Of a DNA stretch of 64,000 nt, positions 56,021 to 62,688 are shown piece by piece. The notes below the pieces were generated by a model. It was given only the letters and a program-made list of their open reading frames with translations. It did no database searches and was not told the origin of the DNA. The first letter of the stretch is position 1. The number at the start of each line of letters is the position of its first letter. Source of the DNA: Shewanella sp. SNU WT4 (GTDB taxonomy: Bacteria; Pseudomonadota; Gammaproteobacteria; Enterobacterales; Shewanellaceae); assembly GCF_006494715.1 (NCBI RefSeq), contig NZ_CP041151.1, positions 2,046,001 through 2,110,000 of the forward strand. Direction: 5' to 3'. A program made the position numbers and the translations under genes.

Positions 56021-56038
56021 AAAAAACCCGCATTTGCG
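56021..56038 (+). terminator. Left half of the grxD/uraA terminator, split by IS4 copy 1
   Basis: AAAAAACCCGCATTTGCG is the left arm. The right arm CGCAATTGCGGGCTTTTTT resumes at 57458 after the element. Rejoined, they give CCCGCAATTGCGGG with A- and T-runs, a bidirectional terminator for convergent grxD and uraA. Confidence 0.8.
56029..56038 (+). repeat. Target-site duplication, left, IS4 copy 1
   Basis: CGCATTTGCG abuts the left IS end. The right copy at 57458-57467 is CGCAATTGCG, with one base different. The right version is a perfect palindrome, and the left T probably arose after insertion. Confidence 0.75.
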
Positions 56039-56088
56039 TAATGCCGATCAGTTAAGACAGATCGCTTGACGATCTCACTGAAAGGATC

Positions 56089-56122
56089 AAAATCCGATGA
56101 CCCCATGTCATCGGATTTTTTT
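56089..56122 (+). terminator. Inward-facing terminator at the left end of IS4 copy 1
   Basis: AAAATCCGATGAC (56089-56101) pairs with GTCATCGGATTTT (56107-56119), a perfect 13-bp stem with a T-run to 56122, immediately before the transposase ATG. It should stop transcription entering from grxD and could also occlude initiation on read-through RNA. Confidence 0.88.
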
Positions 56123-57448
56123 ATGCAACTTTCAGAAGCTTTGGCGCGTACTCATATCAATCGCCATACCGAATTCACCTGTCTGGCCGATGTGCTTGAG
56201 CCTGATTTAATTCAGTCGTGCCTTGATTCTCATGGTGTTGCCAGTTTACGGCGACGTAAGTTACCTATGGATGCCATGATTTGGGCGGTGATTGGTATGG
56301 CTCTGTTCAGAGGCGAGTCCGTCCGCTCTCTCATCAATAAGCTTGATATCGTCTTACCTCAAGAGGTGGATTACGTGGCTCGCAGCGCTGTTACACAAGC
56401 GCGCAAGCGGCTGGGCTCTGACGTTGTTCAGGATGTGTTTAAGCGAAGCGCCAAGACTTGGCATGAGAGAGCAGAGCATCCACATTGGTGTGGACTCAAC
56501 CTCTACGGTGTCGATGGTGTCGTGTGGCGAACACCTGATAGTGAGCAAAACAACCAGGCCTTTGCCAAAACCGCCAACGCTGCTGGTGATGCTGCCTATC
56601 CTCAAATTCGTATGGTTTGCATGATGGAATTAAGCAGTCACTTGGTATTGAACAGTGCCTTTGATTCTGTTGCTGTCAGTGAAATGAATTTAGCCGCCGA
56701 ACTGATATCCAGCATACCCAATAACAGCCTAACTCTGTTTGACAGAGGCTTCTATTCGTTGGGGCTTTTGCACGCTTGGCAACAGGCTCAACCTAACAGC
56801 CACTGGCTGCTGCCGTTGAAGAAAGGGACACAATATGAAGTGGTACGCTCTTTAGGAAAACACGACCAATTGGTGCAGTTAACCACCACACCTCAAGCCA
56901 GAAAGAAATGGCCTATGCTGCCTGACAATATTGAAGCTCGCTTACTGACGAAGACGGTAAAAGGTAAGTTGGTTGCCATTTTGACCTCATTAACTGACCC
57001 CTTGCGTTATCCGGGGGCTGAGATAGTGGATTTATATGCCCATCGATGGGAGATAGAAGTGGGCTATCGGGAGATGAAGCAGCATCTGCTGGAGAGTCGC
57101 TTTACGTTACGCAGTCAATTGCCAGAGCTGGTTATCCAAGAATTGTGGGGGGTACTGTTGGCCTATAACCTCATCAGATACAAGATGGTGTTGATGGCTA
57201 AAAGCTTACCGTCGTTACATCTGAACCAATTGAGCTTTAGAGATGCGTCGAGTTATATCATTTTAAAACTGACTCAGCTGTCATCTCAAACGCCAGGGAA
57301 TGTCCCGAGAGATGTTTTGGACATAGTGCGTAATGCAAGGCAGTTCAAGCTTGATGGGAAACGGGATAGGGCCTATCCACGTGCGTTAAAAATGAGTAAA
57401 AACAAGTATCCCATTAAGCCTAAGAAAAATGCCGTTCACACTAAGTGA
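56123..57448 (+). CDS. IS4 family transposase, copy 1
   Basis: The 441-residue DDE transposase aligns along its whole length with E. coli IS4 InsG (442). The N-terminal IS4 domain has [20 protein letters not shown], the first Asp is in [12 protein letters not shown], the second in [14 protein letters not shown], and the YREK signature Y-x2-R-x3-E-x6-K is in [15 protein letters not shown]. The reading frame is intact. MQLSEAL at 56123 fits the IS4 start. In-frame starts at 56066 and 56105 lie in or before the terminator hairpin. Confidence 0.92.
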
Positions 57449-57453
57449 ACGAC
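57422..57453 (-). terminator. Inward-facing hairpin at the right end of IS4 copy 1
   Basis: On the minus strand a GCCGTTCAC-type stem (57453-57445 with 57439-57431, one mismatch in this copy) is followed by ATTTTTCTT. It should stop transcripts entering from uraA and ends just beyond the transposase stop codon. Confidence 0.7.
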
Positions 57454-57457
57454 ATTA

Positions 57458-57467
57458 CGCAATTGCG
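57458..57467 (+). repeat. Target-site duplication, right, IS4 copy 1
   Basis: CGCAATTGCG directly follows the right IS end and continues into GGGCTTTTTT, the right arm of the split terminator. Confidence 0.8.
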
Positions 57468-60455: not shown

Positions 60456-61166
60456 TTGACACAAAACTCACCTATACAGTTATCTTTACCGGTACATTTA
60501 CCGGATGACGAAACATTCAACAGTTATTATCCTGCCACCGGCAACGATGAACTGATCCAAACCCTGCAAATATCTGCGGCCGGGGAAGGCGCTCACATCA
60601 TTTATTTATGGGGGCCTATCAAATCTGGTCGTACCCATTTGTTGCATGCCGCTTGCGCTTACGCCAATGATAAAGACAGGCGTAGTTTTTATTTACCTAT
60701 GGGAATTCATGCCAGTATCTCTCCAGCCTTGCTTGAAGGTTTAGAGCAGCTTGATTTGATTTGTATCGATGATGTTGATGCTATTGCAGGCCACCCATTA
60801 TGGGAAGAGGCTTTATTCGATTTATATAATCGTGTCACTGAACATGGTCGTTGCTCCTTAATAGTGAGCGCCGCTAAGCCCATTAGTGACATAGGTATTT
60901 TACTGCCAGATTTGTTATCGCGGATGCAGTGGGGCATTAACTATCAATTGCAACCAATGGCCGATGATGAAAAGTTAGCAGCATTGCAGCGCCGTAGCGC
61001 TATGCGTGGCTTGCATTTGCCTGATGATGTTGGTCGTTTCTTGTTAAATAGAATGGCGCGCGACTTACGCACCTTGTTTGATGTGCTTGATAAGTTAGAT
61101 AAAGCCTCAATGATCCATCAGCGTAAATTAACTATCCCATTCGTGAAAGAAACGCTTCGCCTCTAA
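60456..61166 (+). CDS. hda: DnaA regulatory inactivator Hda
   Basis: The 236-residue AAA+ protein is homologous to DnaA domain III and E. coli Hda. The N-terminal clamp-binding QLSLPVHLPDDETF is present, with Walker A-like LWGPIKSGRTHLLHAA, Walker B-like LICIDDVDAIAG, SRMQWGINYQLQPM, and the ending KLTIPFVKETLRL. With the DNA-loaded beta clamp it triggers DnaA-ATP hydrolysis. The start is TTG at 60456 (MTQNSPIQLSLP) with no strong ribosome-binding site, fitting low expression. Its terminator is split by IS4 copy 2. Confidence 0.95.
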   Translation: MTQNSPIQLSLPVHLPDDETFNSYYPATGNDELIQTLQISAAGEGAHIIYLWGPIKSGRTHLLHAACAYANDKDRRSFYLPMGIHASISPALLEGLEQLDLICIDDVDAIAGHPLWEEALFDLYNRVTEHGRCSLIVSAAKPISDIGILLPDLLSRMQWGINYQLQPMADDEKLAALQRRSAMRGLHLPDDVGRFLLNRMARDLRTLFDVLDKLDKASMIHQRKLTIPFVKETLRL

Positions 61167-61185: not shown

Positions 61186-61205
61186 AAAAAGCACAGCCGA
61201 GGCTG
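61186..61205 (+). terminator. Left half of the hda terminator, split by IS4 copy 2
   Basis: AAAAAGCACAGCCGAGGCTG lies before the element, and CAGCCGAGGCTGTGCTTTTTG after it (62625-62645). Rejoined they give AGCACAGCC-GA-GGCTGTGCT with A- and T-runs, a bidirectional terminator for hda and the convergent gene. Confidence 0.82.
61194..61205 (+). repeat. Target-site duplication, left, IS4 copy 2
   Basis: CAGCCGAGGCTG, 12 bp, is repeated exactly at 62625-62636. It is a near-perfect palindrome centred on the terminator loop. Confidence 0.9.
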
Positions 61206-61255
61206 TAATGCCGATCAGTTAAGACAGATCGCTTGACGATCTCACTGAAAGGATC

Positions 61256-61289
61256 AAAATCCGATGACCCCATGTCATCGGATTTTTTT
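61256..61289 (+). terminator. Inward-facing terminator at the left end of IS4 copy 2
   Basis: Same perfect 13-bp stem and T-run as in copy 1, directly before the transposase ATG at 61290. It would terminate read-through from hda. Confidence 0.88.
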
Positions 61290-62615
61290 ATGCAACTTTC
61301 AGAAGCTTTGGCGCGTACTCATATCAATCGCCATACCGAATTCACCTGTCTGGCCGATGTGCTTGAGCCAGATTTAATTCAGTCGTGCCTTGATTCACAT
61401 GGTGTTGCCAGTTTACGGCGACGTAAGTTACCTATGGATGCCATGATTTGGGCGGTGATTGGTATGGCTCTGTTCAGAGGCGAGTCCGTCCGCTCTCTCA
61501 TCAATAAGCTTGATATCGTCTTACCTCAAGAGGTGGATTACGTGGCTCGCAGCGCTGTCACGCAAGCGCGCAAGCGCCTGGGCTCTGACGTTGTTCAGGA
61601 TGTGTTTAAGCGAAGCGCCAAGACTTGGCATGAGAGAGCAGAGCATCCTCATTGGTGTGGACTCAACCTCTACGGTGTCGATGGTGTCGTGTGGCGAACA
61701 CCTGATAGTGAGCAAAACAACCAGGCCTTTGCCAAAACCGCCAATGCTGCTGGTGATGCTGCCTATCCTCAAATTCGTATGGTTTGCATGATGGAATTAA
61801 GCAGTCACTTGGTATTGAACAGCGCCTTTGATTCTGTTGCTGTCAGTGAAATGAATTTAGCCGCCGAACTGATATCCAGCATACCCAATAACAGCCTGAC
61901 GCTGTTTGACAGAGGCTTCTATTCGTTGGGGCTTTTGCACGCCTGGCAACAGGCTCAACCTAACAGCCACTGGCTGCTGCCGTTGAAGAAAGGGACACAA
62001 TATGAAGTGGTACGCTCTTTAGGAAAACACGACCAACTGGTGCAGTTAACCACCACACCTCAAGCCAGAAAGAAGTGGCCTATGCTGCCTGACAATATTG
62101 AAGCTCGCTTACTGACGAAGACGGTAAAAGGTAAGTTGGTTTCAATTTTGACCTCATTAACTGACCCCTTGCGTTATCCGGGGGCCGAGATAGTGGATTT
62201 ATATGCCCATCGATGGGAGATAGAAGTGGGCTATCGGGAGATGAAGCAGCATCTGCTGGAGAGTCGCTTTACGTTACGCAGTCAATTGCCAGAGCTGGTT
62301 ATCCAAGAATTGTGGGGGGTACTGTTGGCCTATAACCTCATCAGATACAAGATGGTGTTGATGGCTAAAAGCTTACCGTCGTTACATCCGAACCAATTGA
62401 GCTTTAGAGATGCGTCGAGTTATATCATTTTAAAACTGACTCAGCTGTCATCTCAAACGCGAGGGAATGTCCCGAGAGATGTCTTGGACATAGTGCGTAA
62501 TGCGAGACAGTTCAAGCTTGATGGGAAACGGGATAGGGCCTATCCACGTGCGTTAAAAATGAGTAAAAACAAGTATCCCATTAAGCCTAAGAAAAATGCC
62601 GTTCACACTAAGTGA
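61290..62615 (+). CDS. IS4 family transposase, copy 2
   Basis: The 441-residue protein differs from copy 1 at three residues only: Ser for Ala before ILTSL, Pro for Leu in SLHPNQLSF, and Arg for Pro in QTRGNVPRD. All catalytic motifs ([20 protein letters not shown] and the YREK block) are intact, so it should be functional. The preponderance of silent changes between copies points to selection on the protein before the two copies met in this genome. Confidence 0.93.
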
Positions 62616-62620
62616 ACGGC
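62589..62620 (-). terminator. Inward-facing terminator at the right end of IS4 copy 2
   Basis: On the minus strand GCCGTTCAC (62620-62612) pairs perfectly with GTGAACGGC (62606-62598) over five bases, followed by ATTTTTCTT. It faces transcripts coming from the convergent metalloprotease-like gene. Confidence 0.8.
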
Positions 62621-62624
62621 ATTA

Positions 62625-62636
62625 CAGCCGAGGCTG
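62625..62636 (+). repeat. Target-site duplication, right, IS4 copy 2
   Basis: CAGCCGAGGCTG, an exact copy of 61194-61205, leading into TGCTTTTTG of the split terminator. Confidence 0.9.
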
Positions 62637-62688
62637 TGCTTTTTGATTTAATCAATTCATCCTGCAATACCAGTTTTACTCTCTAGCG

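Follow-up and report, generated by a model that had tools for sequence, protein, structure and literature searches.

IS4-subgroup insertion sequences appear to choose intrinsic-terminator-like dyads as targets and carry terminator-like hairpins of their own

An insertion sequence between hda and a convergent gene

The window, i.e., the whole 64-kb stretch of DNA analysed here, contains two copies of an insertion sequence (IS), the second of which lies between hda and a convergent open reading frame (ORF) (Table 1). Searches of the convergent ORF against Pfam and NCBIfam profiles gave no match at E 0.001. Copy 2 has imperfect inverted ends and a single ORF, the product of which matches PF13006 (1.7e-31), PF01609 (9.6e-22) and NF033592 (293.7 bits against a cut-off of 115) in profile searches and contains, by eye, the DDE transposase motif Y(2)R(3)E(6)K. 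In the accessible text of De Palmenaer et al. (2008, PMC2266710), the IS4 subgroup is defined by the YREK motif, -AATR ends with WTW, lengths of 1400-1650 bp and direct repeats of 10-13 bp. The ends of copy 2 agree with the pattern -AATR--------WTW---- in Table 1 of that paper, its size and gene content lie within the range of the subgroup, and its 12-bp duplication falls inside the expected lengths. On all these counts, copy 2 fits the IS4 subgroup. Three further genomic copies are 100% identical to it over the full length.

Copy 2 is flanked by an exact duplication, CAGCCGAGGCTG, that occurs exactly twice in the window. Rejoining the flanks gives AAAAAGCACAGCC-GA-GGCTGTGCTTTTT, a bidirectional terminator-like dyad with a GC-rich hairpin and T-tract on both strands, which is a predicted terminator. 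An earlier note on this DNA had claimed that an IS4 copy here interrupts a terminator at its dyad, with hda on one side and a convergent gene on the other, that a 12-bp duplication flanks it, and that the rejoined flanks carry A- and T-runs; the flanks, the profile match of hda and the facing ORF bear out all of this. The interval given there, 61186-62645, comprises the element plus the split dyad.

Table 1. Coordinates of the two IS copies, their target duplications and neighbouring features in the window
Feature	Position	Strand	Basis
Copy 1, left 10-bp duplication CGCATTTGCG	56029..56038		sequence
Copy 1, splits terminator downstream of Grx4-type glutaredoxin gene	56039..57457	+	sequence, profile search
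Copy 1, right 10-bp duplication CGCAATTGCG, one mismatch	57458..57467		sequence
hda, upstream neighbour of copy 2	60456..61166	+	NF005982, TIGR03420
Split terminator, left outer arm, AAAAA + GCA	61186..61193		A-tract/GC half-site consensus
12-bp target duplication CAGCCGAGGCTG, left copy (dyad core)	61194..61205		exact repeat
IS4-subgroup insertion sequence, copy 2, 1419 bp	61206..62624	+	ends TAATGCCGATCAGTTA / TAATGCCGTTCACTTA
Transposase ORF, likely start ATG 61290	61233..62615	+	PF13006 + PF01609, YREK motif, NF033592
Inward terminator-like hairpin + T-run directly before transposase ATG 61290	61256..61289	+	folding
Inward terminator-like hairpin formed by right end, minus-strand reading	62590..62623	-	folding
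12-bp target duplication CAGCCGAGGCTG, right copy	62625..62636		exact repeat
Split terminator, right outer arm, TGC + TTTTT	62637..62644		sequence
Convergent neighbour of copy 2, unnamed ORF, 427 aa	62689..63972	-	ORF list

The right inverted repeat of copy 1 carries a changed base (AACGACATTA, window 57448-57467). Together with the one-base mismatch between its duplications, this suggests that copy 1 is probably an older insertion.

Relatives with an uninterrupted hda downstream region were compared with the rejoined site. Among 123 other members of the genus with an hda match, the best 29 were examined and 24 were readable; in 18 of these 24, a dyad preceded by AAA and followed by TTT lies no more than 160 bp from the hda stop, although one of the 18 (L291) looks by eye like a poor terminator. 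In the nearest relative (80% identical, L272) there is a dyad lacking A/T tracts. The earlier note had held that empty sites forming no terminator would speak against its reading; most readable relatives are terminator-like at this position. The genomes of the genus that were searched included none of the same species and did not yield the exact allele that preceded the insertion; the nearest relative has diverged.

Symmetry of target sites in the host genome and in relatives

For each site, we scored symmetry as D, the number of symmetric complementary positions out of 11-12 located 2-13 bp from the axis, with the centre allowed to shift by ±1 bp, and termed sites with D of at least 9 strong dyads. 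By chance, D reaches at least 9 at 0.27% and at least 8 at 1.4% of window positions.

Six full copies of the element, and one more that retains both ends but has lost internal sequence, are present in the host genome. All seven sit in an A-tract/dyad setting, with a short right-hand T-tract in two (L003, L006); D is at least 8 in all seven and at least 9 in six. A second IS4 in the same genome, with a transposase about 35% identical, is present in twelve full copies and one partial copy (L336-L348), and all twelve full copies lie in terminator-like dyads with D of at least 8 (at least 9 in 11). Pooled over both elements, 17 of the 19 copies with both ends reach at least 9 and all 19 at least 8, which confirms and extends to the whole genome the claim that both window copies occupy the same kind of site. 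The internally deleted copy (442 bp, C1:447171-447612, L007) has its own duplication and lies in a terminator; either it moved in deleted form or it lost its interior after insertion. On the second contig, a 179-bp fragment of the transposase gene of the element, 97% identical, is found at C2:21048-21226 (L008).

As a control, we inspected 25 loci with PF00665 in the same genome, among which two multi-copy IS groups, of 5 and 7 copies, could be read at both ends. Five members of the group of 7 have 4-bp duplications, with D of 3, 6, 3, 5 and 4; no clear duplication was seen by eye in the other two or in the group of 5, and these remained unscored.

Further target sites were collected by DNA and protein searches of 129 genomes of the genus including the host (55 with a match, eight analysed in depth) and of overlapping sets from the family (152 genomes, 58 with a match), the order (394 genomes, 44 with a match at E 1e-60) and the phylum (398 genomes, 19 with PF13006), as well as from an Aeromonas record, plasmids and E. 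coli genomes; sites were taken from the part of the matches for which DNA was retrieved. Of 308 loci scanned, 243 gave resolved elements and 65 did not, and 195 of the elements were unique by their flanks. Leaving out of the counts 36 unique copies without a recognisable duplication and removing two near-duplicates and three short-flank copies gave 154 non-redundant sites from the genus, the order, Aeromonas and enterobacteria. Five copies without a duplication (L014, L020, L042, L043, L046) have flanks that look as if each were half of a different terminator, a pattern that recombination between copies would produce.

Strong dyads account for 133 of the 154 sites, and the best dyad centre falls within 1 bp of the centre of the duplication in 151. 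Split by the nearest query transposase, the counts of strong dyads are 49/56, 20/23, 25/27, 19/22 and 20/26. All 18 places examined later in three genomes of the order gave resolved elements; two had already been counted, and among the 16 new sites 15 are strong dyads and 15 are centred, the miss being L389 with D 5. The earlier note had named as a possible refutation that such hits might be expected by chance; the symmetry table it proposed places them far above the 0.27% of window positions, with the background rates taken from one 64-kb window and the sites from many genomes.

Duplications measure 10 bp (27 sites), 11 (60), 12 (43), 13 (9) or 14 (2) over 141 sites, a set from which two duplicated sites more than 70% alike to another had first been removed. 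These 141 sites all differ, and no common repeated sequence family was found among them. The stem bases vary while complementarity is kept, just as had been supposed from the two window copies, whose targets differ in sequence and share dyad geometry.

The earlier note had also pointed to a shared orientation of the two copies. This holds for the element itself, all seven copies with both ends being on the + strand of the chromosome (two-sided p=0.016), but not for the second IS4, of which seven full copies are on the + and five on the - strand. Relative to IS orientation, A-runs and T-runs have mean lengths of 5.37 and 5.35 (p=0.95, n=113). Equal run lengths and the mixed second IS4 rule out a fixed orientation relative to the terminator.

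Prototype IS4 in E. coli

With the window element as query, E. coli genomes gave no match; the prototype IS4 was found there by way of a plasmid match. It is laxer than its relatives: among 14 distinct sites with a duplication in enterobacterial records, 6 have D of at least 9. Two of its sites lie within genes. K-12 provides an exact empty site at crr-pdxK, with one copy of the duplication, and empty sites by alignment at metK, bamD and fumC/fumA, where the overlap of the flanks equals the duplication length (13, 14 and 12 bp, respectively). The metK terminator (L244, L373) has received IS4 in two E. coli strains, in one orientation in the first and in the reverse orientation in the second. 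The adhE terminator (L303, L245) is occupied by IS4 in one strain and by an IS4-like remnant in the K-12 reference NC_000913, where it is annotated as ISZ with the insZ pseudogene.

What the transposase appears to read

Aligned on the cut, positions -7 to -5 are A in 92-96% of half-sites, so that AAA 5-7 bp outside each cut is the most conserved feature of the targets. Inward of AAA follow A/G and then G/C-rich positions, with T at 3% at -4 to -2. The duplicated 10-14 bp are mostly hairpin core, and the junctions with the element lie about 4 nt inward of the A-tract on one side and of the T-tract on the other. The two halves of a site covary: complementarity at -4 to +2 is 0.71 versus 0.40 ± 0.013 when halves are dealt among sites, with a maximum of 0.45 in 1000 random deals. 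Judged by base complementarity, this covariation shows that most targets are real stem-loops, yet it does not follow that the transposase reads the stem.

Two half-sites read directly and a dyad read as such can be distinguished at sites where symmetry is poor. Among 21 weak-dyad sites, AAA is found near -6 on both sides in 9, on one side in 11 and on neither in 1, against a chance of 0.058 per side; that 20 of 21 retain it on one side or both speaks more for two inverted half-sites being read directly than for recognition of a cruciform. We also scored a half-site matrix over 400,831 background bases, in a comparison that used 108 of the 141 sites. At scores of at least 16, 21 of 25 background positions are also dyads, as are 91 of 93 real sites. 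At equal matrix score, dyads are in excess among real sites (Mantel-Haenszel odds ratio 5.1 over bins, small numbers), with the bin of 14-16 reversed (dyads in 1 of 3 real sites versus 10 of 20 background positions). Since this excess is modest and uneven, it does no more than hint that the dyad matters in addition to the half-sites. Recognition of the dyad alone is not required, given that weak-dyad sites are used and strong matrix matches are mostly dyads anyway. The symmetry table supports the earlier proposal of target choice by terminator or dyad geometry, with the correction that target choice seems to be determined by two A-tract/GC half-sites and not by the dyad itself.

Direct reading of two half-sites is, on these comparisons of sites, the better-supported mechanism, from which the preference for terminators would follow. 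Each transposase subunit of the synaptic complex would read one half-site, roughly AAA(A/G)(G/C)(G/C)(C/G)^(C/G)(G/C)C, and a flexible gap between half-sites would let the duplication follow the length of the hairpin. Consistent with such flexibility, the further apart AAA and TTT lie, the longer the duplication tends to be (Spearman 0.38, p=4e-5; 113 of the 141 sites compared), and its length agrees in parity with the dyad at 88 of 121 sites. Because an inverted pair of such half-sites 10-13 bp apart is in practice a bidirectional intrinsic terminator, terminators would serve as landing pads, and insertion would break the host terminator in two. We assign a probability of about 0.78 to the overall reading that IS4-subgroup elements choose intrinsic-terminator-like dyads as targets by way of half-sites, with an exchange of terminators.

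The strongest rival holds that the transposase recognises an extruded cruciform or a structured single strand and that the consensus sequence arises only because the targets are terminators. The strong covariation of the halves, the centring of the dyad on the duplication in most sites and the slight over-representation of dyads at equal matrix score would all agree with it. Against it stand the use of weak or non-dyad sites that nearly always retain AAA, the entry of E. coli IS4 into genes at places without a strong dyad, and the low sequence scores of the hairpins of the elements themselves (see below), and we regard it as unlikely. Less probable still, and in our view a poor candidate, is a coupling of targeting to termination itself, through paused RNA polymerase, a nascent hairpin or an R-loop instead of DNA sequence: the targets do resemble functional terminators, but the T-run side is not preferred relative to IS orientation, one metK terminator has received IS4 in both orientations, and E. 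coli IS4 has sites inside genes. Fairly random insertion followed by purifying selection that spares only insertions at gene ends would fit the finding that at least one gene 3' end faces 62 of 74 sites with readable context (crude calls from open frames of at least 90 aa within 500 bp, available for 74 of the 141 sites), but it is highly improbable and refuted as the sole cause by the centring of the duplication on the dyad axis, which selection cannot achieve to within 1 bp, just as it cannot fix AAA at -7 to -5. The low D (3-6) of the five scored control copies, which belong to another IS of the host genome, also speaks against it; selection may still remove rarer off-target insertions.

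Inward hairpins carried by the elements

Both ends of copy 2 fold into terminator-like hairpins that face inward (Table 1). The stretches that contain them fold far better than shuffles, with z -4.5 for the whole 117 nt around the left hairpin and z -6.8 for the 61 nt around the right one. The left hairpin is expected to stop transcripts entering from hda, and the right one those entering from the convergent gene. We then considered 44 representative elements, clustered by shared 10-mers, and counted hairpins with dG of at most -6 within 125 nt of an end. An inward terminator-like hairpin is present at the left end of 42 and the right end of 43 of the 44 elements, as opposed to 10 of 528 interior control stretches, and the stem sequences vary from element to element.

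Scored as targets, these hairpin regions differ from the sites into which the elements insert. Their best target scores have medians of 2.0 (left) and -0.1 (right) and maxima of 11.5 and 10.3, compared with a median of 21.3 and a 5th percentile of 8.7 for real targets, on which the matrix was itself trained, and with 12.2-24.4 for ten hand-picked host terminators. Left-end hairpins typically show AATCC after a short A-run, lacking the half-site signature. For want of this signature the element hairpins rate poorly as targets, and self-insertion would be limited as a result; a narrow motif test found none of the 154 sites nested in a left hairpin, a result that also counts against cruciform recognition. 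We infer that this self-avoidance may be an adaptation.

Transcripts from the neighbouring genes would stop at the element hairpins, within roughly the first 100 nt, and the transposase gene would be shielded from transcription that starts outside the element; such an exchange of terminator for terminator would make insertions close to neutral. With terminators as targets and stop-like hairpins of their own, insertions are probably nearly harmless. We lean slightly towards a broader reading, in which this widespread IS subgroup, with IS4 laxer, is specialised for intrinsic terminators via half-sites and swaps in its own inward terminators that it does not recognise itself, as a safe-haven strategy. 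Short isolated matches to the right-end palindrome (query about 1384-1419) and to the left hairpin (50-90) are also numerous in genomes of the genus and are possibly solo hairpins or miniature elements.

Relation to known systems

Group IIC introns are mobile elements associated with terminator hairpins; they are retroelements that insert beside the stem, with RNA-based recognition. IS231A, of the IS4 family, is in its accessible descriptions similar to the present element in its 10-12 bp duplications and known target specificity, but it belongs to a different subgroup and has a different target. ISRm22 and other IS in REP elements, and IS1397 in palindromic units, likewise home to extragenic palindromes according to the accessible part of Tobes and Pareja (2006, PMC1525189); their target is one repeated sequence family, whereas that of the IS4 subgroup consists of terminators of varied sequence.

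The specificity of IS4-subgroup targets has been noted before. The accessible text of the 2008 review (PMC2266710) calls the target-arm specificity of the subgroup "spectacular" with no reference to terminators, and gives consensus target arms in its Figure 3 with no identity for the target; the word "terminator" is absent from its main text, and no mention of inward terminators or self-avoidance was found in its accessible part. A 2022 survey of IS neighbours (PMC9208149) lists IS4 among the families under-represented between divergent genes and, in its accessible portion, does not name terminators as IS4 targets. Our literature search, in which subscription journals and bioRxiv were thinly covered and which is thus weak evidence of absence, found no paper naming terminators as targets of the IS4 subgroup. 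Inward hairpins at both element ends that are poor as targets appear to be new here.

A terminator preference would give a concrete identity to a target specificity that has so far been noted and apparently left unexplained. It would account for the variable duplication length and, terminators being numerous and free to vary in sequence, explain in a simple way why such an element can reach a dozen copies and leave genes intact. Insertions of IS4-subgroup elements would then be able to reshape read-through between adjacent genes, and their sites could act as a sequence-based catalogue of terminators. For the closest named relative found, ISSba6 (a name from a plasmid annotation; transposase 87% identical), no description of target choice was found; it is a different element from that of the window and also sits in a terminator dyad (L134).
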